From: Candidatus Omnitrophota bacterium
Lineage (GTDB): Bacteria; Omnitrophota; Omnitrophia; Omnitrophales; Aquincolibacteriaceae
Direction of reading: 5' to 3'
NCBI GenBank assembly: GCA_903819565.1
Contig: CAIJDY010000137.1
Span: forward strand, 1-37,601
Length of the DNA: 37,601 nt
Of the stretch, positions 21,092 to 33,252 are shown in pieces. The position numbers and the translations under genes are program-made. The notes under the pieces were generated by a model, which saw only the letters and a list, made by a program, of their open reading frames with translations, had not been told where the DNA came from and did not search any database. Numbering within the stretch: position 1 is the stretch's first letter; each line of letters opens with the position of its first letter.

Positions 21092-22174
21092 CTACTTTTT
21101 GTCTTTTCCGGCCGGCTGGATCCTCGAAAGCGCAAGCGCAAGCTCTTTGGGTTCGACCGCCATCTCGAGCGCGGCGTCGAGGCTGATGATCCCTTGGGTA
21201 TAGAGTTGTTTTAAATAGTCATCAAGCATGATCATGCCGTAGCGGGAGCCCGTCTGGATCTCCGAGAGGATCTGGTAGGTCTTGCCCTCGCGGATCAGGT
21301 TCCTGATGGCCGGAGTCGCGAACATAATCTCGAAGCCCGCCACGCGGCCTTTGCCGTCTATGCGCGGGAGCAGCACCTGGGAGATCACCGCCACGAGCGT
21401 CGAGGCCAACTGCACGCGGATCTGGGCCTGCTGGTGCGACGGGAAAACGTCGATGATACGGTCCACGGTCCGCGCCGCGCCGGTCGTGTGGAGAGTCGAG
21501 AACACCAAATGTCCCGTTTCTGCGGCGCGAATGGCGGATTCCATAGTCATCAAGTCGCGCATTTCGCCGATGAGGATCACGTCCGGGTCCTGGCGCAACG
21601 ACTTTACGATGGCCTCGGAGAACGTCGGAACGTCGTCCCCTACCTCACGTTGCGTCACGACGCACTCCTTGTGGGTGTGGACAAATTCGATCGGATCTTC
21701 GGCGGTAATGATATGCCGCGGAAAGTTCTCGTTAATATAGTTAAGCATGGTCGCCAACGTCGTGGTCTTTCCGGATCCCGTAGGGCCCGTCACGAGCACC
21801 AGACCGCGCGGGAGATTGAGGACCTCGATCAGCTGATTGGGCAGGCCGATATCCTTGAAATTATAGAACTTGGACGGCAGGAGACGCAGCACGATGGCGT
21901 AATGGCCCTGCGCTTTAAAGCAGGAGACGCGGAAACGCGCTTTGTCCTTGAAGGAAAACCCGAAATCAATGCCGCCGACCTCTTCGATCTTTTTACGCTG
22001 GGCTTCCGTGGTGATCTGCTTGGCGAAACCTTCCGTGTCCTGAGGCGTAAGGGATTGGGTTCCGATCGACACGAGATCGCCGACCAACCGGTAGGTCACC
22101 GGCCGCCCCGGGGTGATGTGGATATCCGAAGCCTCTCTCGAGACCGCCTCCATCAAGACCTCTTCTATGCCCAC
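21092..22174 (-). CDS. pilT: Type IV pilus retraction ATPase PilT
   Basis: VTGPTGSGKTTTLATMLNYIN, ITAEDPIEFVH, LRQDPDVILIGEMRD, TGHLVFSTLHTTGA, AIRNLIREGK. Confidence 0.93.
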   Translation of the reverse strand: MGIEEVLMEAVSREASDIHITPGRPVTYRLVGDLVSIGTQSLTPQDTEGFAKQITTEAQRKKIEEVGGIDFGFSFKDKARFRVSCFKAQGHYAIVLRLLPSKFYNFKDIGLPNQLIEVLNLPRGLVLVTGPTGSGKTTTLATMLNYINENFPRHIITAEDPIEFVHTHKECVVTQREVGDDVPTFSEAIVKSLRQDPDVILIGEMRDLMTMESAIRAAETGHLVFSTLHTTGAARTVDRIIDVFPSHQQAQIRVQLASTLVAVISQVLLPRIDGKGRVAGFEIMFATPAIRNLIREGKTYQILSEIQTGSRYGMIMLDDYLKQLYTQGIISLDAALEMAVEPKELALALSRIQPAGKDKK

Positions 22175-22246
22175 GGGACTCCTTCCTCTAAAGGGGAAAA
22201 TTTCGGACGACTTCTCCTATTATATTCGACCAGCGGGGGAAAAACC

Positions 22247-22756
22247 TTAGAAAACGTACCGGCCGAGGCCCCACAGGGCAAGGGAAACGAATGCCGCCAA
22301 AAGACAAAAAACGGGCCACCCCTTCACCGGCTCCGGGACGCTTGAAAAAAGAAGCTTGTACCTCAGCCCGAGAAAACCGGTCTGAAATAGCGCGACCCCC
22401 ACGCTCGCAACCCACACCCATGAGAGGTTATAAAAAAAGTCCTCGCGAACAGAAAGAGGCGTGGACGCCAGGGCGATCACGAAAAAAAAGAAAAAATCGG
22501 ATTTTTTCTGGTAACGCGTCAAAAGATAGGCCGTCGCTCCCGTAAGCAGGACCGCGTATTCCCGGACAAAACCCCGGCAGCCGGCAAAACTTGCGGTCAC
22601 CGTGAAAAGAGCCGCGATCAGCCCGAGAGTCAGGAAAAGATCCGTCGCCTCCCGCCAGATCCAAAAAAAGGACGGCACAGGCCTTTGGGAAAAAGCCTGC
22701 CGCGACCCTCGGATCGCGAACAAAAAACCGGCAACGATGATCAGGCTGTAGGACAT
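22247..22756 (-). CDS. Divergent RnfA-like integral membrane protein
   Basis: C-terminal QTGFLGLRYKLLFSSVPEPVKGWPVFCLLAAFVSLALWGL resembles RnfA C-termini (R..L..adVP.pfrG.pi.li.AgllaLaf.G). Hydrophobic throughout, last gene of the Rnf-like run. Confidence 0.6.
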   Translation of the reverse strand: MSYSLIIVAGFLFAIRGSRQAFSQRPVPSFFWIWREATDLFLTLGLIAALFTVTASFAGCRGFVREYAVLLTGATAYLLTRYQKKSDFFFFFVIALASTPLSVREDFFYNLSWVWVASVGVALFQTGFLGLRYKLLFSSVPEPVKGWPVFCLLAAFVSLALWGLGRYVF

Positions 22757-22760
22757 ACGG

Positions 22761-23282
22761 CTACCTTCGAAAGGGCTGGTTTTTCCAAAAGGACGCCAGA
22801 ACGGCGATCAGCAGGAAAAGAACAGCCGGTTGTTGAAATGAAATGCCCCGCCCCCCAAACTCCAAGCCTTTTTGAGCTCCCGTGACGATAAGGACGAAGA
22901 GGATGAACCCGAAGCCCGCGACGGCCCTCTCCCAAAAGTACCTTAAGACCTCCTTTGAAAAAACGCGGGCCCGGCTCGCCCTTTTTTCTTTTTCCATAAA
23001 AGAGAGCGGCGTCAGAAAAAAAACGCTCAACAGCCACAGCGGTTCCAGCTCCGCAAGGGTCCAGACGATTTGCCCCCAGACGAGCAGCCAAAGAAAAAAA
23101 GCCTCCTTCAGGAACCTTTCGGGAAAAAACCTGCGCGTGAACCAGAAAAACAGAAGGGAGATCCAGGAGACGGCCGTGATCAACAGCGCCGTCTGGCAAG
23201 CTCTCGGGGGATCGAACGCATAGGCCATGAGAGGAAGATAAGCCAGGACGCTTCTTGAAAAAAGGCTTTCCGGCAGCTTCAT
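22761..23282 (-). CDS. Divergent RnfE-like integral membrane protein
   Basis: N-terminal SRSVLAYLPLMAYAF occupies the RnfE ..q.LGlCPaLAvt position; GFGFILFVLIVTGAQKGLEFG and FQQPAVLFLLIAVL match RnfE-type C-terminal helices. Synteny after RnfD. Confidence 0.55.
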   Translation of the reverse strand: MKLPESLFSRSVLAYLPLMAYAFDPPRACQTALLITAVSWISLLFFWFTRRFFPERFLKEAFFLWLLVWGQIVWTLAELEPLWLLSVFFLTPLSFMEKEKRASRARVFSKEVLRYFWERAVAGFGFILFVLIVTGAQKGLEFGGRGISFQQPAVLFLLIAVLASFWKNQPFRR

Positions 23283-23425
23283 ACCTTGACGCCCTCCTCG
23301 AAAATTATCCGGGGCCGTTCACGGCCGAACTTTTTGACGCCGTAGAGCACCGCCATCAGCGCGCACACACAAAAGCCGAGGAACAGGTACCTTAAAATTC
23401 TCACTGCGATCTTTTTGACACTCAT
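23279..23425 (-). CDS. 48-aa single-TM protein in the RnfG position (MSVKKIAVRILRYLFLGFCVCALMAVLYGVKKFGRERPRIIFEEGVKV)
   Basis: ATG at 23425 overlaps the rnfD stop (ATGA); its TGA overlaps the start of the next gene (ATGA). Too short for the supplied ORF track. Confidence 0.7.
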   Translation of the reverse strand: MSVKKIAVRILRYLFLGFCVCALMAVLYGVKKFGRERPRIIFEEGVKV

Positions 23426-24276
23426 GATTGACCGCCTGCGTTCACAAGCCCTTCCGCCGCAGAGGGCCGGGGCCTCAACCAGACATCCAGCCAGGGAGTC
23501 AGCAAATTCATGAGAAGGATCGAAAAACCCGCAGCTGCCATCGAAAATCCACGGGGACTCAGTAGCGCACTCAGCAAGGCGGCTCCCGCCACAAACAGGC
23601 GCGTCCCCCTGCGCGTCAACGGCATAGCGACCGGATCCGCCAAAAGGAAAAAAGCCGTCAAAAGAACGCCGCTAAAAAAATTCCCGGGATCGTTCCCCCA
23701 CCGGCCGAGGGCGAAGGTGCAAAAAGAGCAGAGCGTTATATAAAGGAAAGGGGTCTCCCAATAGCCCTGTTTCTGTCTCACGAGGATCAGACCGCCGATC
23801 CCGACCGCCGTCAGGACCCAAAAGCTGCCATGAAGGACCAGGGGTTCCGCCGTCATGCCCGGAAAACTTGCATGAAGAAAAACGCGCGCGAACAACACGG
23901 GATGGAAAAGATATTCTCCCATCCCTCCAAAAAACTCTTTCGCGATGAATACGGCCAAAAAATTCGCTAAAAGGATCGCCTCCGAAGGGCATCCGGGCGG
24001 CATGAGAATCGCCATTAAAACCGCGATCAGGATCGCTTCCCCGTGATGAAGCTTGTCCTTTTTGCCGAAGAGTTTCGCGCCGAGGAGCTCGAAAGCAACG
24101 GCGCTGATCAAGCTTAGAAGAAGCACGTGCAGAAATTCCGTTTTCCCGAAAAAACCGGCCGCAAAAATCACCGGCATTAACGCGGCCAGCTGACCCCAGC
24201 ACCTCTTGGCGACAGTATCCGCGCTGTGGATATAAGGCGCCGGCGTCGCGGAAAACGTCTTCCCGTTCTCAGCCAT
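23422..24276 (-). CDS. rnfD: RnfD-like membrane protein
   Basis: HHGEAILIAVLMAILMPPGCPSEAILLANFLAVFIAKEFFGGMGEYLFHPVLFARVFLHASFPGMT; SGVLLTAFFLLADPVAMPLTRRGTRLFVAGAAL; FSILLMNLLTPWLDVW. Confidence 0.82.
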   Translation of the reverse strand: MAENGKTFSATPAPYIHSADTVAKRCWGQLAALMPVIFAAGFFGKTEFLHVLLLSLISAVAFELLGAKLFGKKDKLHHGEAILIAVLMAILMPPGCPSEAILLANFLAVFIAKEFFGGMGEYLFHPVLFARVFLHASFPGMTAEPLVLHGSFWVLTAVGIGGLILVRQKQGYWETPFLYITLCSFCTFALGRWGNDPGNFFSGVLLTAFFLLADPVAMPLTRRGTRLFVAGAALLSALLSPRGFSMAAAGFSILLMNLLTPWLDVWLRPRPSAAEGLVNAGGQS

Positions 24277-25576
24277 GGTGCGCCCCCGCCGGTTTTGTGC
24301 CGGAGATCCCGAGCTTTTTCTTTGCTGTCCGTATCTTTTCTAGCATTGGCCTTTGGGACGGACAGACATAACCGCAATTGCCGCATTCGATGCAGGCCGC
24401 GGCCCCGAAGATCCCGGCAGTCTCGAGTTCCTGATGGTCCGCCGCGAGCGTGATCATGACCGGCGAGATCCCAGCCGGACATTTATTCACGCAAAGGTTA
24501 CAGCGGATACAGGGTTCTTCCGGCCCTTTTTTCGTGATCTCTTTGGGAAGCGCCAGAACGGCGGCCGTACCTGCCGTGACCGGAACGTTCAGGTCCGCTT
24601 GGGCGATACCGGCCATGGGTCCGTTCATGACGACCCTCTCCGGTTCGCGCATCACCCCTTTGCAGGCGTGGATCGCGTCCTGGAACGAAATCCCCAGCGG
24701 CAGCCAAAGACTTCGCGGCTCCACCACACATTCTCCTCCCACGGTCACGAGCCTTTCATAAAAAGGTTTTTGATGCGCCACGGCTTCATAGGCCGCAAAG
24801 GCTGTCGAGGCCGGAAAGACCACGGCCTTCTCTTTTTCTCCGGGAAACCAGTTCTGAAGCAGCAACCTCTCGGTCCCCTGAGGATAAAGAGAGGGAACCG
24901 CCCGGGCCTCCGCATGGGTCCATTTCAAAAAAAAGATCTTACTTTTGAGGAGTTCCCCGATCTCGAAATTGCAGGTTTCGAACGCGAGCAGGATCTTCTC
25001 CGCGCCCAGCGCTTTTCGAAGTAGCTCGGCGCCTTTCAGGACCTCGACGGGATGCGACAACAAAAGCGTCTGCTCGCAGGTGACATAGGGTTCGGGTTCG
25101 CAGCAATTCACAACCAAGGTAGAGGCCGCCGCGTGTCTTTTGATCTTGGAGTGGACGGGTTCGGCGGAAAGGTCCGTGGTGACAAGTCCCGCACACTGGA
25201 AAGCCGCTTCAAGTTCTCCGGCAGGGATCTGTTCCCATCCTTTACGGATCTCCCAAACCCCGGGGGCCAGTTTAGGTTCCGTGCTTTTCTGAATGACCAC
25301 CCTCACGCTCATGCCGCCCATCGCATCCGGCGCCGCGGCGATCTCCGTGACGGTTCCCGAAATGCTCGCGTGAACCGTCGCTTCTTCGGGATTTTCCGGC
25401 TCGCCGATCCTTTGCCCGATCCGGACCTGCTCCCCGACCCGGACGCAGGGCCGTGATCCTTGACGCAGAGGAACGCAGATCTTTTCCGGAGGATGGAGCC
25501 GCTTAAGGTTCCAGTTCAGCAGGCTCGCGTCTTTTTTTCTTTCGAGGCGGATGCCGACGGGCTTGGGTGCTGCCAA
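24269..25576 (-). CDS. rnfC: RnfC-like iron-sulfur protein
   Basis: N-terminal barrel-sandwich KICVPLRQG..PCVRVGEQVRIGQRIGE; CCEPEPYVTCEQTLLL; two ferredoxin motifs CIRCNLCVNKCP and CIECGNCGYVCP. Confidence 0.85.
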   Translation of the reverse strand: MAAPKPVGIRLERKKDASLLNWNLKRLHPPEKICVPLRQGSRPCVRVGEQVRIGQRIGEPENPEEATVHASISGTVTEIAAAPDAMGGMSVRVVIQKSTEPKLAPGVWEIRKGWEQIPAGELEAAFQCAGLVTTDLSAEPVHSKIKRHAAASTLVVNCCEPEPYVTCEQTLLLSHPVEVLKGAELLRKALGAEKILLAFETCNFEIGELLKSKIFFLKWTHAEARAVPSLYPQGTERLLLQNWFPGEKEKAVVFPASTAFAAYEAVAHQKPFYERLVTVGGECVVEPRSLWLPLGISFQDAIHACKGVMREPERVVMNGPMAGIAQADLNVPVTAGTAAVLALPKEITKKGPEEPCIRCNLCVNKCPAGISPVMITLAADHQELETAGIFGAAACIECGNCGYVCPSQRPMLEKIRTAKKKLGISGTKPAGAHHG

Positions 25577-25623
25577 GATGGGTTCCTTTCAGAATGCCGG
25601 AGACCTGGAAAACCGGGGCCGCT

Positions 25624-26385
<762 letters not shown>

Positions 26386-27741
26386 TTATACGCCCTCCGG
26401 GGTCGCCTCTTCGATCGATTCATAAGTGATATCCAGCAAACGCTCGAGCTCCTTCGCGCTCATCCCAAGCGGCGGCATCAGCACGATCACGGATCCCAGC
26501 GGCCTCAGGATCGCGCCTTTTTTCCTGGCCTGCTCGATCACGCGAACGCCGATCTTTTCCTTGGACCCGAACGGTTCTTTGGTTTCCCGGTCGCGGACCA
26601 GCTCGATCCCGATCATGGTCCCGACCTGCCGGATGTCGCCGACGCATTTCAGTCTGTAGAAATCCCGCAACCTCTCGCGCAAAAACCGGATCTTCGGCTG
26701 CAGCCTCTTGAGAACCTTTTTTGTCCTGAAAAGCTTCAGGTTCGCGACCGCCACCGCGCATGCCAGCGGATTCGCAGTATACGTGTGCCCGTGAAAGAAC
26801 GTCCTGAACTCTTCGTGTTTCCCGAGAAACGCGTCGTAAATTTCTTCCGTAGTCAACGTTACGGCCAGCGGCAAATAGCCGCCGGTGATGCCCTTGGCGA
26901 CCGCCATCAGGTCCGGTGTCACCCGTTCGTGTTCCGCGGCGAACATTTTTCCGGTGCGGCCGAACCCGGTCGCGACTTCATCGAAGATCAGGAGCACATT
27001 ATACTTTTTCGTTAATTGCCGCGCACGGGAAATATAGCCCCCCGGCTGACCAATCATTCCCGCCGCGCCCTGCATGAGCGGTTCCATCACGAGCGCAGCG
27101 ATCTCCTCATGGTGTTTTCTGAAAATATCTTCCATCGCCCTCAGGGATTCTTCCTTCACGCGCTCCGGATCGGAGCCGGTCGGCCACCGGTACACGTACG
27201 GCGACGGCACCGCGAAGGTCTCGAAAAGCAGGGGCCGGTAGGCTTGGTGAAAAAGATCGATGCCGCCGACGCTCACGGAGCCGATCGTGTCCCCGTGATA
27301 CGCGTTCGTCAGGCGGGCGAACTTTTTTTTTCGCGGTTTTCCGCGCTGCTGCCAGTACTGATAAGCCATCTTGATCGCGATCTCCACGGCCTCGGACCCC
27401 GAATCGGAATAAAAAACGCGCGTGAGCCCCCGGGGCGCGATGGCGACAAGTCGTTCCGCAAGTTCGATCCCCGCGGGATGCGTGAGGCCGAGGAACGTGC
27501 TGTGCGCGATTTTCCCGAGCTGCTCTTTGACGGCCGTATCCAGCTCCTTCACCCGGTGGCCGTGGACGTTACACCAGAGCGACGAAACGCCATCGAGGTA
27601 CCTTTTCCCCTTAGCGTCGATGAGATAGCAGCCGTCGCCTCTTTCGATGACCGGCACTTCGTCCGTCTGCCAGTCCCGCATCTGCGTAAAGGGGTGCCAG
27701 AGGTATTTCCTGTCTTTCGCGACCAGTTTCTTGGGGTCCAT
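26386..27741 (-). CDS. bioA: Adenosylmethionine-8-amino-7-oxononanoate aminotransferase
   Basis: HPFTQMRDW, SLWCNVHGHRVKELD, LLIFDEVATGFGRTGKMFA, FFHGHTYTANPLACAVA. Confidence 0.95.
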   Translation of the reverse strand: MDPKKLVAKDRKYLWHPFTQMRDWQTDEVPVIERGDGCYLIDAKGKRYLDGVSSLWCNVHGHRVKELDTAVKEQLGKIAHSTFLGLTHPAGIELAERLVAIAPRGLTRVFYSDSGSEAVEIAIKMAYQYWQQRGKPRKKKFARLTNAYHGDTIGSVSVGGIDLFHQAYRPLLFETFAVPSPYVYRWPTGSDPERVKEESLRAMEDIFRKHHEEIAALVMEPLMQGAAGMIGQPGGYISRARQLTKKYNVLLIFDEVATGFGRTGKMFAAEHERVTPDLMAVAKGITGGYLPLAVTLTTEEIYDAFLGKHEEFRTFFHGHTYTANPLACAVAVANLKLFRTKKVLKRLQPKIRFLRERLRDFYRLKCVGDIRQVGTMIGIELVRDRETKEPFGSKEKIGVRVIEQARKKGAILRPLGSVIVLMPPLGMSAKELERLLDITYESIEEATPEGV

Positions 27742-27744
27742 CGA

Positions 27745-28908
27745 TCAAAGCCCGGTTTTTTTGAAACGGTTAAAAGTCTCGATAAGTTTTTTGATATCCT
27801 CTGCCGTGTGCGCAGCGCTAACGGTAATACGGAGCCGGGCTTTTCCTTTCGGGACCGTGGGATACCGCACGGCGGGTATAAAGATCCCTCCGGATAAAAG
27901 CGCCTCAAACGCGTCCAAGGCTTTCTTTTCATCTCCCAGGATCACCGGCAGGATGGCCGATGCGGCCGACGCCGGGGAAAACCCCGCGGCCTTCAATCCC
28001 TTCTCGACCGTCCGAATATTTTCCCAGAGCTTTTCGCGCAGCGAGGGCTCTTCTTCAATAACGCAAAAAGCTTCCCGGGCGGCTTCGCAAAGCATGGGAG
28101 GAAGCGCCGTCGCGAAAATAAAAGGACGTGCAAAATTAACCAAAGTATCGATTAAAACTTTGTCCGCGGCCACAAAACCGCCGAGCCCGCCGACGGCCTT
28201 GGAAAGCGTCCCCATGATAACATCCACGCCCTCCGCGATCCCTTCAGGCTCGGTGGCCCCGCGACCGCTTTCGCCGACAACGCCCGTGCCGTGCGCGTCG
28301 TCAACGACCAGAAGCGCGCCGTATTTTTCTTTCAGACGAATGAGCTCTCCGAGGTCCGCAAGATCGCCGTCCATGCTGAAAACGGATTCCGTCACGAGGA
28401 TCTTCCGCCGGGCGGTTTTGCTCTTTTTGAGAAGCGCTTCGCATTGCTTGTAATTTTTATGAGGAAACACCCGCAGCGCCGCGCCCGAAAGCCTGGCCCC
28501 GTCCACAAGCGACGCGTGGCACAGTTTGTCCATGATAATGACGTCCCCGGTACCCGCGAAAGCGGTCAGGATCCCAAGGTTGGCGAGAAATCCGGTCGCG
28601 AAAACGACCGCCGCTTCTTTTCTTTTGAATCGCGCGATCTTTTCCTCGAGCTTCCGGTGGGCTTCGGACGTTCCGGAAATAAGCCGCGCCGCCCCAGCGC
28701 CGACGCCGTAGGTTTCAAGCGCTTTGCGGGCCGCATGCACCACGCGGGGATAACGGCTCAGCCCCAGATAATCGTTGCTGCAAAAAAGCAGCAACTCACG
28801 GCCTTCGAACCGCGCGCGGGTGCCTTCGTGATGCTCAAGAACGCGGAGCTTCCGGTAAAGGTTTTTTTCGGAGAGTTGTTTGAGTTCCGTCTGAAAGGAT
28901 TGTCTCAT
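27745..28908 (-). CDS. bioF: 8-amino-7-oxononanoate synthase
   Basis: LLLFCSNDYLGLSRYPRVV, LLVVDDAHGTGVVGESGRGATE, GTLSKAVGGLGGFVA. ATG 28908 overlaps the KAS stop (ATGA). Confidence 0.94.
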   Translation of the reverse strand: MRQSFQTELKQLSEKNLYRKLRVLEHHEGTRARFEGRELLLFCSNDYLGLSRYPRVVHAARKALETYGVGAGAARLISGTSEAHRKLEEKIARFKRKEAAVVFATGFLANLGILTAFAGTGDVIIMDKLCHASLVDGARLSGAALRVFPHKNYKQCEALLKKSKTARRKILVTESVFSMDGDLADLGELIRLKEKYGALLVVDDAHGTGVVGESGRGATEPEGIAEGVDVIMGTLSKAVGGLGGFVAADKVLIDTLVNFARPFIFATALPPMLCEAAREAFCVIEEEPSLREKLWENIRTVEKGLKAAGFSPASAASAILPVILGDEKKALDAFEALLSGGIFIPAVRYPTVPKGKARLRITVSAAHTAEDIKKLIETFNRFKKTGL

Positions 28909-30110
28909 AGTTTCCGGAGCGCGATCGTGGCGACCTGTCCGCCGAAGCCCATCGAGATCTTGATCGCTGTGGCGATCTTGTGCGGGCGCATTTTCAAAGG
29001 AACGTAATCCAGGTCGCATTGCGGGTCCTTTGTTTCCAGACCGGCGGTCGGGGGAATAAAACCTTCCTGCATCCCGAGGAGTGTCGCCATGATCTCGACG
29101 GCGCCCGTCGCCCCGAGCATGTGGCCTGTCATGCCTTTGGTCGAACTCATCGGGATCTTATAAGCCTGATCGCCGAACGCTTCTTTGAGCTCTAGTGTCT
29201 CATAAAGGTCGCCGTGTTTTGTTCCGGTCCCGTGAAGATTGACGTAATCGATCTCCCGCGGGACGATCCCCGTCTTTTTCAGAAGGACTTTCAGCGTGTG
29301 GGATAAGGCATGCTCCTTGGGATCGAATAGAATGGGGTCTTTGCTGTCCTGGCCGTGCGCCGCTTCGAGGATCTCACCGTAGATCCTGACGCCGCGCTTT
29401 TTCGCGCTTTCCAGCGTTTCCAGGAACATGACCCCCGCGCCTTCACCGACCAGGAAGCCGTCCCGGTTCCTGTCGAACGGGCGGAGATCTTTCCGCGCGA
29501 GAGCCTTCATGTTCCGGTAGCCGCCGAGCATCAGCGGCGTGATTGAGGCGTCCGTCGCACCCGCCAGGCAGTATTCCGCCTGGCCTTCCGCGACCATACG
29601 AAAGCCGGCGATCGTCGCAACCGTTCCGGTCGCGCACGCGGCCACGTAGCACTTCGCCGGCCCCTGGATCTTCATGCGCCGTGCGATCCACTGGTCCGCG
29701 AAATTCGGGACCGCACTTGTGTACATCCTTGCTCCGAGGATCGCGCTCGGCGCCCTCTGAAGACGTTCGCTCAAACGGTCGACCGTGCAGACGCCTCCTT
29801 TGCTGGAGCTTACGGAAAGGGAAATACTGAAGGGGTCCGCGGCCTTGATATCGAATTGCGCGTCCGCGACCGCCTGCTCCGCGGCGGCGACCGCGAACTG
29901 GATAAAGGGGTCGAGAAGATGGGTTCCGTATTTTTTCGGGTTAAAATCTTTCAGCCGGAAAAGCGGCGGGAACGAGTGTCCCCCGACCTCCGAAGACTCC
30001 GCCTTCTCTTTGCCGCAGACGCCTTTTCGGAGGCTTTCCAGGAACGCCGCGACCGTATTCCCGATCGGGGAAAGAACGCCCATTCCCGTGACCACAACAC
30101 GCCGGCTCAT
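28905..30110 (-). CDS. FabF-like beta-ketoacyl-ACP synthase embedded in the biotin operon
   Basis: MSRRVVVTGMGVLSPIGN; Cys-His-His triad in VAACATGTVA, NLHGTGTKHGD, STKGMTGHMLGATGA. Confidence 0.9.
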   Translation of the reverse strand: MSRRVVVTGMGVLSPIGNTVAAFLESLRKGVCGKEKAESSEVGGHSFPPLFRLKDFNPKKYGTHLLDPFIQFAVAAAEQAVADAQFDIKAADPFSISLSVSSSKGGVCTVDRLSERLQRAPSAILGARMYTSAVPNFADQWIARRMKIQGPAKCYVAACATGTVATIAGFRMVAEGQAEYCLAGATDASITPLMLGGYRNMKALARKDLRPFDRNRDGFLVGEGAGVMFLETLESAKKRGVRIYGEILEAAHGQDSKDPILFDPKEHALSHTLKVLLKKTGIVPREIDYVNLHGTGTKHGDLYETLELKEAFGDQAYKIPMSSTKGMTGHMLGATGAVEIMATLLGMQEGFIPPTAGLETKDPQCDLDYVPLKMRPHKIATAIKISMGFGGQVATIALRKL

Positions 30111-30191
30111 TGCCTTGAGGTTCCTTTTGGGTGATTTCCGGGCGTTACGCGCCACAATGCCTACCGCCGATCGCCCGGGAATTCATTAGAG

Positions 30192-30210
30192 CCCTGGCAA
30201 AGATCCAGGG
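30192..30210. other. 6-bp hairpin in the SDR-KAS intergenic gap
   Basis: CCCTGG-CAAAGAT-CCAGGG within the about 134-nt gap. Confidence 0.35.
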
Positions 30211-30244
30211 ACTTTTGCGCGTTCGCTCAGGCGGAAATTCTATC

Positions 30245-30973
30245 CTATAACGGGCGGGATTCAAAATGAAAGACTTGGCCCGTCACCTGCCGCATCAGAT
30301 CAGAGGAAAGATAGACCATGAAGTCCGCGACCTCTTCGGGGTCCGAAAAGGTTTTGAGAGGGCTGTCCTGGATATTTTTTTTAAGGACATTTTCCGGCAA
30401 TTTCGCGGTCATGGCGGCTTTCATGAAGCCCGGGTTGATAGCGTTGACAAGGACTTTCTTGCGCCCCAACTCTTTCGCGAGCGATTTTGTCATGGCGATC
30501 AGCCCGCCTTTGGACGCAGCGTAATTTGCGGCGCCGTAAAGGCCGCTCAGGCCCGCGCGGCTTACCAGCATAAAAACCTTGCTGGGTTGCTTCTTGAACA
30601 GAAGCGGCAAAAGCCGCTTGGTCATATAGAAGGGAGCCTTCAGGTTGACACCCACCACGCGGTCCCAATCCTCTTCGGGCATTTTTTCGATGAGCGAGTC
30701 GGCAGTCGCCGCGGCGTTGTGGATCAGCACGTCTAGCTGTTCAGCCTCCTTTTGAAAAGAAACCGCAAAAGCCTCCATGGCCGGGACGCTGGTCAGGTCC
30801 AGCACATAGCCGCGCGCGCCGGATTTTCCCAGTATCTGGGCGATCTCCCCGGACCGGAAATAGGTGAAGAAAACGCGGGCGCCATGGCAAAGGGCCTTGC
30901 GCACAAAGGCCTGTCCCAGTTGGCTGGTGCCGCCGGTGATGAGGATGGTCTTTTCTTTAAGCAGCGGTTCCAA
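30245..30973 (-). CDS. FabG-like short-chain dehydrogenase/reductase in the biotin operon
   Basis: ILITGGTSQLGQAFVRKAL, HNAAATADSLIEKM, MLVSRAGLSGLYGAANYAASKGGLIAMTKSLAKEL. Confidence 0.9.
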   Translation of the reverse strand: MEPLLKEKTILITGGTSQLGQAFVRKALCHGARVFFTYFRSGEIAQILGKSGARGYVLDLTSVPAMEAFAVSFQKEAEQLDVLIHNAAATADSLIEKMPEEDWDRVVGVNLKAPFYMTKRLLPLLFKKQPSKVFMLVSRAGLSGLYGAANYAASKGGLIAMTKSLAKELGRKKVLVNAINPGFMKAAMTAKLPENVLKKNIQDSPLKTFSDPEEVADFMVYLSSDLMRQVTGQVFHFESRPL

Positions 30974-30976
30974 AGG

Positions 30977-32008
30977 TCAGGAGGGGGTTCGTATCGCAGT
31001 GCGTTCCATGCAACAGGTTTTTTCCACGTTATGAGCGGCAAAGCCCGCGTGTTCGAGCATGGCGCGGTCTTCCGCCAGGGGACTTCCGCCGGTCGTGAGG
31101 TACCCGCCGACCACAAGACCGTTGGCGCCGCCGCGCAGGGATTTCTCCTGGAAATAGACCCCGAGATTTAGTTCCCGGCCGCCCGCGAGCTTGATGTTGG
31201 CTTGTGGATGGATAAAACGGAAGATCGCGACGGTTTTCACGATCTCAAAAGGGTCGATGGGCGCCTGGTCCTGAAGCGGCGTGCCCGGCCGCGGGTTCAG
31301 AATGTTGATCGGAAGGCAGTGGAGCGCATAATCCTTCAGTTCGAAAGCGAATTTGACCCGGTCTTCTCGCGTCTCCCCCATCCCGAAAATGCCGCCGGAG
31401 CAGATCTCCACGCCGTTCTCTTTCAGAAAATTCAGTGTTTCCTTCCGCTCATCGTAAGAATGCGTCGTCACGATCCGCGGATAGAACTCCCGCGAGCACT
31501 GCAGGTTATGGTTAAAGCGGCGCATCCCGGCTTCCTTGAGTTTGCGGATCTGTTCCGCGGTCAAATTCCCCAGCGATCCGTCCAAGCGAAGGTTTGTTGC
31601 GGCGCTCAGCCGCCGGAAGGTTTCAAGGATCTGTTCAAACTCCGCGTCGTTCAGGGTTTCGCCGCTCGTAACAACACAAAAGCTCTGGATGTGATCCGCC
31701 TCGCACTGTTTGGCCGCCCGCAACACTTCCCCAGGGCTCAGGAGCGGATATCTTTTGACTCCGGTGTTGAAGCGGGAAGACTGCGAGCAAAAACCGCAAT
31801 CTTCGGAACACAGATAGCTTTTCGCGTTGATCAGGGAACAAAGGTCGGGCTGGGAAGGACGGAAGCGTTTGGTTATTTCATGAGCGGCATTTAAAAGGAG
31901 GTCTCCCGTCGCAGCGTCTTCAATAGCGACAAGCCGGGTCGCTTCGCCGAAAGAGATCGTCCCGCCCGCAAGGGCCCTTTCCTGAAGCTCACGGATGAAC
32001 GCTTTCAT
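30977..32008 (-). CDS. bioB: Biotin synthase (radical SAM)
   Basis: SYLCSEDCGFCSQSSRF, CVVTSGETLND, FNHNLQCSREFYPRIVTTHSYDER, NIKLAGGRELNLG. Start ATG 32008. Confidence 0.96.
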   Translation of the reverse strand: MKAFIRELQERALAGGTISFGEATRLVAIEDAATGDLLLNAAHEITKRFRPSQPDLCSLINAKSYLCSEDCGFCSQSSRFNTGVKRYPLLSPGEVLRAAKQCEADHIQSFCVVTSGETLNDAEFEQILETFRRLSAATNLRLDGSLGNLTAEQIRKLKEAGMRRFNHNLQCSREFYPRIVTTHSYDERKETLNFLKENGVEICSGGIFGMGETREDRVKFAFELKDYALHCLPINILNPRPGTPLQDQAPIDPFEIVKTVAIFRFIHPQANIKLAGGRELNLGVYFQEKSLRGGANGLVVGGYLTTGGSPLAEDRAMLEHAGFAAHNVEKTCCMERTAIRTPS

Positions 32009-32034
32009 GTGCGGTGCTGCGCCGGAATCAAAAC

Positions 32035-33252
32035 CTAGGCCTGCGCGAAGATCTCGCGCGCGACGATGCCGACCACGCCCAAGGCAACGGCGTTCTCGCC
32101 GAAAGCGGACGGAATAATCTTTACTTGCGAGGAGGCTTCTTCCGCCGCCCATTCCTTCACCGTGCTCTTGATCGCGTCAAGAAGCGTTGCGCCGCAATCC
32201 TCGATGCCGCCGCCGATCACCACCACTTCGGGATTAAAGAGGTTCACGATGAACGCGATCTTTTTCCCGAGGTCCTGGCCGGCCTGCTCGACCACCTTCA
32301 GCGTCACCGGATCTTTTTCGCGGACGGCGCGGACAATATCCTTGAACGTCAGCTTGGAAAGATCCCCGCCGACGTACTCTTTTAGCGCGGAGGGCTCCCC
32401 TTTTTCGATCCGCTCCCGCGCGTGACGCAGCATGCCGATGTCCATCTCCCACCGGCCGAGCTGTGTCGCCATTCTCATAAAGGTCTCTTTATTCGAGTGC
32501 GGGCTGGTAATGCCGAGCTCGCCCGCGGCGCCGTTCGCTCCACGATAGATCTCTTCGTTCACGAGGATACCGCACCCGACCCCGGAGAACATGTACACCA
32601 TGTGGCGCACATCCCGGTCCAGTCCGAGCCATTTCTCCCCGAGCACGGCAGCGTTCGCGTCATTTTCGACGATCGTCGGGATATTCAGCCGTTTTTCAAA
32701 CGTATCCTTGATTGAGGAGCAAACCGAAACGTCCTTGTCCCCGAGGCTTTGCGGCCAGCGAATGGTCCGGCCGCGCTCATCAATGATGCCCGGCACGCCG
32801 ACGCCGACGCCGATAATCTTGCTTTTATCGATCTCGGCCTTTTCGATGATCTCTGCCGCAAGATCCACCATGAGGTGAATGACTTTTTCGGAATTTTCGG
32901 GAAGTCTTTCCCTTTTCACTTCCGTGATCACGTTGATCTCGAGGTCCACCAGCACGCCAACCATGCTCATCATGTTCAAGCCCACGCCGACGATGTAACC
33001 GGCTTTCGGGTTCAATTCCACGAGCACGGGCTTGCGGCCGCCGGTCGATTCGTCCAGCTCGCCCTCGATCACGAGTCCTTTCTTGATGTAGTGGCTGACG
33101 TAGTTGGAGACCGTCACGATGTTAAGCTCGGTGAGCTTGGAAATGTCCGTCCTCGAGATCGGTCCGTTTTTGCGGACAACTTCGAGAATGGAAAGATTTT
33201 TTCTTTCCTTGTCCGTTAAAATGCGGTCCTTGAGCATTTGTTTGATCACCAT
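32035..33252 (-). CDS. ROK-family protein with N-terminal winged HTH
   Basis: wHTH ILEVVRKNGPISRTDISKLTELNIVTVSNYVSHYIKKGLVIE; STGGRKPVLVELNP; GVGVGVPGIID; VENDANAAVLGEKWLG; NLFNPEVVVIGGGI. Confidence 0.9.
   Translation of the reverse strand: MVIKQMLKDRILTDKERKNLSILEVVRKNGPISRTDISKLTELNIVTVSNYVSHYIKKGLVIEGELDESTGGRKPVLVELNPKAGYIVGVGLNMMSMVGVLVDLEINVITEVKRERLPENSEKVIHLMVDLAAEIIEKAEIDKSKIIGVGVGVPGIIDERGRTIRWPQSLGDKDVSVCSSIKDTFEKRLNIPTIVENDANAAVLGEKWLGLDRDVRHMVYMFSGVGCGILVNEEIYRGANGAAGELGITSPHSNKETFMRMATQLGRWEMDIGMLRHARERIEKGEPSALKEYVGGDLSKLTFKDIVRAVREKDPVTLKVVEQAGQDLGKKIAFIVNLFNPEVVVIGGGIEDCGATLLDAIKSTVKEWAAEEASSQVKIIPSAFGENAVALGVVGIVAREIFAQA

Follow-up and report, generated by a model that had tools for sequence, protein, structure and literature searches.

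A Stripped Rnf-like Operon in Omnitrophota That Keeps the Iron–Sulfur Clusters of RnfC and Lacks Most Other Rnf Cofactor Sites

A Reduced Rnf-like Complex

The window analyzed here is a stretch of 37,601 nucleotides from a Candidatus Omnitrophota bacterium (contig CAIJDY010000137.1 of assembly GCA_903819565.1; C137 in this work), which belongs to a draft genome of 2.1 Mb in 229 contigs that is approximately 84% complete. On its minus strand, between positions 25,576 and 22,247, it carries an operon for an Rnf-like complex that is devoid of nearly all the electron-carrying sites of Rnf except the two iron–sulfur clusters of RnfC, so that the known Rnf mechanism should be unable to operate. The stripped complex probably has a new job. 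The interpretation favored here, held tentatively and at somewhat less than an even chance, is that it constitutes a vertically inherited Rnf derivative that lost ferredoxin:NAD+ ion pumping and was reused as a one-way iron–sulfur relay, in which electrons would pass from RnfC to RnfD. All five open reading frames (ORFs), in the order RnfC, RnfD, a peptide of 48 amino acids (aa), RnfE-like, and RnfA-like, are open and overlap or nearly abut, as described in an earlier reading of the same DNA (hereafter, the original prediction).

Cofactor Sites Kept and Lost

The window RnfC scores above the curated cut-off of the rnfC subfamily (TIGR01945; 272.6 versus 245.95 bits), matches solved RnfC at E = 1e-56, and retains the barrel-sandwich, Complex1_51K-like, and SLBB domains. 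Both 4Fe–4S motifs are intact, with 8/8 Cys residues present in the alignment (C356/359/362/366 and C395/398/401/405), and these eight residues are invariant in all 39 full-length RnfC sequences compared, 32 of which are non-canonical. The glycine-rich loop that binds flavin mononucleotide (FMN) and NADH in canonical proteins (GLGGA.FPT) aligns with TTDLSAEPV in the window. Across the order, cofactor losses are uneven: the loop is lost in family f1, eroded in family f8 (DLGGSG), and intact in L058. Since the RnfD flavinylation motif of L058 is already gone while its loop persists, alignment suggests that RnfD flavinylation was lost earlier than the RnfC loop.

The window RnfD matches PF03116 at E = 2e-44, its sole family match, and also solved RnfD, with which its N-terminal arm and membrane core align. 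The periplasmic linker bearing the flavinylated Thr is deleted, the alignment to 7zc6_D skipping from chain residue 140 to 190, and the segment with the covalent-FMN motif (S/T)xATP is consequently absent. Among the residues of the riboflavin pocket, whose roles are described elsewhere (PMC9588780, PMC11889175), the Asp is kept (D214) and the Asn is replaced by His125; the acidic residue is present in 25 of the 28 non-canonical RnfD proteins, where the pocket Asn is mostly His. In Acetobacterium woodii, Rnf is inactivated by either N123A or D249A (PMC11889175). In the solved complexes, RnfC encloses the N-terminal arm of RnfD (PMC9588780), and its two clusters connect the RnfD riboflavin with the RnfC FMN (PMC9588780, PMC12174285); thus, the conserved remainder is a contiguous RnfC–RnfD piece.

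At the position of rnfG, where the original prediction had reported the flavin domain missing, only the 48-aa peptide is found. Since relatives hold longer, graded intermediates in the same position, with ORFs of 255 aa (L069), 228 aa (L044), 189 aa (L048), and 123 aa (L043), this peptide is most likely, on the basis of this series, the surviving membrane anchor of an eroded RnfG. The 228-aa ORF shows a weak FMN_bind match (E = 4e-4) and carries no flavinylation motif.

The RnfE-like and RnfA-like proteins each fall below the Pfam cut-off as single sequences, and their family profiles reach solved RnfE (E = 0.0016) and RnfA (E = 7e-10). For the AlphaFold2 models (predicted local distance difference test, approximately 77), the best-matching folds are NqrD/RnfE and RnfA/NqrE, at weak E-values of 0.08 and 0.005, respectively; therefore, the RnfE identity rests jointly on sequence profile, position, and fold. 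None of the four Cys residues that coordinate the 2Fe–2S cluster of RnfA/RnfE occurs at either aligned site in the window proteins. Displaced cofactor residues were also considered and rejected, as neither protein has a Cys pair in or close to the positions of the cluster. Since this cluster is missing, ion pumping in the manner known for Rnf should be impossible. Two conserved Cys residues of the core group, RnfA C151 and RnfD C96, sit outside canonical cofactor positions. The core group also conserves charged or polar membrane residues, namely RnfD E80, K113, E114, H125, and D214, and an RnfE WKNQP motif.

The losses and retentions listed by the original prediction for RnfC, RnfD, RnfG, and RnfA/RnfE are thus all borne out, and its general statement that the complex is stripped of most cofactor sites holds, with a more specific pattern: RnfD and the invariant RnfC clusters remain, whereas everything before and after them in the electron path has disappeared.

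Searches for the Missing Parts

Searches covered 58 genomes. Neither the window genome nor the other genomes of genera g1, g8, and g17 contain ApbE, FMN_bind, RnfB, or above-cut-off PF02508 matches. The absence of rnfB in and beside the locus was noted at the outset and persists at the genome level, where the draft is approximately 84% complete and near-complete relatives agree. The only PF04060 matches in these three genera are three proteins of approximately 230–250 aa (G000, G018, and G022), two of which were read in context. The one in the window genome (G000) is a soluble 234-aa protein encoded beside a cysteine desulfurase and is not RnfB; that of G018 is soluble and has an ABC ATPase and a HypB-like GTPase as neighbors. 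They represent a conserved soluble protein of approximately 234 aa with the FeS domain (PF04060) at its N-terminus (L075:1090-1794 and L076:5003-5704). A second Rnf or Nqr elsewhere in the draft was considered and none was found, the RnfC-like matches on contig C97 resembling a HydABC/Nfn cluster. Thus, no rnfB or rnfG that would complete a normal complex was found elsewhere in the draft genome. The NqrF subunit, with its flavin adenine dinucleotide and 2Fe–2S sites, is absent from the operon, no genome-wide search for it having been made.

Distribution, Selection, and Stepwise Loss

RnfC relatives occur in 49 of the 58 genomes. The same C-D-(small)-E-A operon stands at the same site between bioD and pilT in two congeners and in genera g8 and g17. 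The compact form was recovered in G001, G002, G018, G009, G020, G022, G024, and G025, with RnfC 57–75% identical to that of the window, and in G026 the operon is interrupted by a contig end. No internal stops exist in the 30 best-scoring RnfC matches. The ratio of nonsynonymous to synonymous substitution rates (dN/dS) is 0.09–0.33 for C, D, E, and A and 0.15–0.34 for the small ORF, values that are approximate because dS often exceeded 1 with the Nei–Gojobori method used. Isolated pseudogenization is ruled out by the orthologues in the two congeners, g8, and g17 together with dN/dS well below 1. The original prediction of a repurposed complex rather than random decay, therefore, stands as regards decay, since the orthologous operons are all open and dN/dS is approximately 0.1–0.3, whereas repurposing is something that we infer.

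In the RnfC tree, a branch with support 100/99 separates the seven canonical sequences from all 31 non-canonical ones; provided that the root is placed among the canonical sequences, this topology is consistent with a single loss of the canonical function. Outside the order, rnfCDGEAB-trx operons of the canonical type persist, as they do within it in family f5 (L060), and the canonical Rnf of L060 occupies the same chromosomal site as the stripped operon. At the other extreme, only rnfC and rnfD precede pilT in L056, L062, and L063, and a thioredoxin gene follows all that is left of the operon, rnfC-rnfD, at L059:4545-4868 and L065:8086-8439. A thioredoxin gene also adjoins rnfB in the canonical operons of the phylum. 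RnfC and RnfD are, hence, the last subunits to be lost, retained even without E and A, and the process is lineage-wide and stepwise, some families having lost additional genes. In G007 and G016, D-E-A is retained beyond a cassette of several kb that separates it from rnfC. A transport cassette on the opposite strand, with an ABC ATPase, a permease, and other genes, is found between rnfC and rnfD in two genera (L070/L113 and L071/L112).

The natural series at one chromosomal site, from intact Rnf through C-D-E-A to C-D alone, allows one to ask which parts of Rnf and Nqr work by themselves, a question tied to the origin of NQR from Rnf.

Possible Function of the Stripped Complex

According to the favored interpretation, ferredoxin:NAD+ ion pumping would have been lost in what was probably a single event close to the base of most of the Omnitrophota order, and a smaller complex would then have been kept by selection, comprising an RnfC–RnfD core, an RnfE/A scaffold, and the RnfG anchor remnant. 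RnfC, with both 4Fe–4S clusters and without its NADH/FMN site or RnfB, would take single electrons from a cytosolic carrier such as ferredoxin and pass them to membrane RnfD, possibly via a modified flavin or another group beside the conserved Asp. RnfD would in turn deliver them to a membrane or periplasmic acceptor, which could be quinone or thiol–disulfide proteins, such as the DsbA-like proteins of sister genera.

Genome context provides several clues about donors and acceptors. A HydABC/Nfn-like cluster, called from gene order and size, is present in the window genome and, therefore, a ferredoxin pool is likely in this organism. DsbA-like proteins are encoded between rnfC and rnfD in seven f1 genomes (L043, L045, L046, L048, L051, L052, and L053); besides a hydrophobic segment at the N-terminus, they have from one to at least three tandem thioredoxin-fold domains, two of these proteins with an extra N-terminal region that is SurA-like in L045. 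In the group of the window, a CcdA/DsbD-type protein (DsbD_TM) is present and VKOR is absent; the idea that RnfD is the sole electron route to the periplasm was rejected on account of this DsbD_TM protein. The complex I subunit NuoH was found in every stripped-Rnf genome sampled, the window genome included, more weakly in G013, while genomes with canonical Rnf have none or matches no better than approximately E = 1e-75. High-scoring NuoH and canonical Rnf are almost mutually exclusive among the 58 sampled Omnitrophota relatives, and the association of NuoH with stripped Rnf may represent one evolutionary event instead of many.

The points counted in favor of the relay are the invariant RnfC Cys residues, the RnfD arm and Asp, the retention of C and D, the persistence of D-E-A where a cassette parts it from rnfC, dN/dS, the tree, the DsbA-like genes, the ferredoxin pool, and NuoH. 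Several others weigh against it. No cofactor path beyond RnfC is demonstrable, and the Asp is the one riboflavin ligand that the window RnfD clearly retains, the Asn being His. The RnfC clusters could be structural. The operon of the window genus has no DsbA-like gene and, since this genus does have a CcdA/DsbD-type gene, a thiol role for the complex is not required. Moreover, E and A are missing from some families (some f8 genomes) and RnfC was not found in several genomes, which indicates that parts of the group have reduced the function or can dispense with it.

A broader formulation, possible if somewhat unlikely, would place the complex as a third working branch of Rnf/Nqr, independent of flavinylation and of RnfB, in which the RnfC 4Fe–4S clusters would serve as electron entry and RnfD would pass electrons in one direction to acceptors in the membrane or periplasm, these being thiol–disulfide proteins where the operon has DsbA-like genes.

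The main rival, rather unlikely in our estimation, is that RnfC/D/E/A constitute a non-redox scaffold that serves as a channel or transporter in the membrane or as a platform for assembly, with RnfC clusters that are only structural. The loss of the known transmembrane redox sites, the urea/ammonium-transporter-like fold of RnfD, and the charged or polar residues that the core group conserves in its membrane proteins agree with such a role, for which NqrA, a relative of RnfC that is devoid of its cofactors and yet a retained subunit, offers a precedent (PMC12174285, PMC4014512). However, NqrA dropped the cluster Cys residues on turning structural, whereas all eight are invariant here in 32 diverged sequences, although the adjoining flavin site was free to vary.

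It is improbable that the window represents a late stage of slow reductive decay, in which Rnf became useless after complex I took over and its genes were lost one by one. The graded erosion of RnfG (228, 189, 123, and 48 aa), the fact that some f8 genomes lack E/A and a few genomes lack RnfC, and the coincidence of the loss with NuoH would be expected from it, but every ORF is under purifying selection, the best-scoring RnfC matches carry no internal stops, the cluster Cys residues are invariant, and D-E-A is retained where separated from rnfC. For the RnfC and RnfD of the window clade, slow decay is already refuted in large part; it explains some of the wider pattern but not this clade.

Finally, a ferredoxin:quinone reductase, a specific form of the relay in which, by analogy with NQR, the RnfC clusters would reduce an RnfD flavin that reduces quinone as in NqrB, is decidedly improbable. 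In its favor, NQR itself has been proposed to derive from an Rnf operon that lost RnfB (PMC4014512), NqrB reduces quinone from riboflavin (PMC12174285), and the complex I subunit encoded by these genomes points to quinone; against it, the riboflavin ligands are mostly replaced.

What the analysis shows directly is the homology to Rnf, the losses, the conservation, the purifying selection, the shared synteny, and the placement to one side of the RnfC tree.

Comparison with Known Systems

The stripped operon shares with Rnf (rnfCDGEAB; 7zc6, 9eri, and 8ahx) the gene order, the RnfC fold with both 4Fe–4S motifs, the RnfD core, and the RnfE/RnfA folds, whereas RnfB, the RnfG flavin domain, the covalent-FMN segment of RnfD, the RnfA/E 2Fe–2S Cys residues, the RnfC FMN/NADH loop, and ApbE are missing. 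The Na+-translocating NADH:quinone oxidoreductase (Na+-NQR; nqrABCDEF) is likewise an Rnf relative without RnfB and with an RnfC homologue that does not bind FMN or NAD (PMC4014512). However, NQR kept flavins and the 2Fe–2S site and lost the RnfC 4Fe–4S clusters, while the stripped complex did the reverse, and the window genome has none of the FMN_bind, ApbE, or above-cut-off PF02508 matches. Two-subunit Nqr/Rnf-like systems (Meheust 2021, PMC8238504; PMC10979944) are also of a reduced Rnf type in which the RnfD flavinylation site is not conserved and one-way electron flow has been proposed. Nevertheless, they include a flavinylated RnfG-like partner and a fusion of RnfD to a PF00175 NAD domain, neither of which is present here, and the stripped operon, unlike them, keeps RnfC, E, and A. 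Since both NQR and the two-subunit systems keep flavinylated subunits, neither matches the stripped form. For the sister genera whose operon includes DsbA-like genes, the transmembrane DsbD/CcdA thiol reductants offer a possible functional analogy, with no claim of a sequence relation. No description of this form was found in the open-access literature searched, which fits the suggestion of an undescribed system; on the other hand, reduced Nqr/Rnf-like systems as such are already known (PMC8238504, PMC10979944).

Gene names that include Rnf are taken as evidence of ferredoxin-based ion pumping. A conserved Rnf complex has been reported for some Omnitrophota classes (PMC10066038) and an Antarctic-lake study lists Rnf for its genera (PMC8542988). 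Since RnfC passes the rnfC cut-off although the complex is without almost every group of the Rnf reaction, energy models built on rnf annotation would be wrong for the lineages studied here.

Operon Layout and Neighboring Genes

The coordinates of the operon and its two synteny anchors are compiled in Table 1. RnfC follows bioD after 47 bp, and RnfA-like is followed by pilT and polA.

Table 1. Features of the rnf-like locus in the window.
Feature	Position	Strand	Basis
RnfC-like protein, 435 aa	24269..25576	-	Family profile, structure alignment, cofactor-residue alignment
RnfD-like membrane protein, 284 aa	23422..24276	-	PF03116, alignment to solved RnfD
48-aa single-helix membrane peptide at rnfG position, probable RnfG anchor remnant	23279..23425	-	Position, graded intermediates in relatives
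RnfE-like membrane protein, 173 aa, without 2Fe–2S cysteines	22761..23282	-	Family profile, AlphaFold2 fold
RnfA-like membrane protein, 169 aa, without 2Fe–2S cysteines	22247..22756	-	Profile, fold; C-terminal half clearly RnfA
bioD, conserved upstream neighbor, synteny anchor outside the complex	25624..26361	-	ORF list, synteny of relatives
pilT-like ATPase, conserved downstream neighbor, synteny anchor outside the complex	21092..22174	-	ORF list, synteny of relatives

The rnf remnant lies in a conserved run (window positions 22174-32152) with the order bioB, fabG-like, fabF-like, bioF, bioA, bioD, mnmA (in relatives), rnf, pilT, and polA. Outside this phylum, stand-alone rnfC-rnfD pairs without an obvious RnfD flavinylation motif occur in Spirochaetales (L106:2482-4963 and L107), with RnfA/E-type genes located elsewhere.

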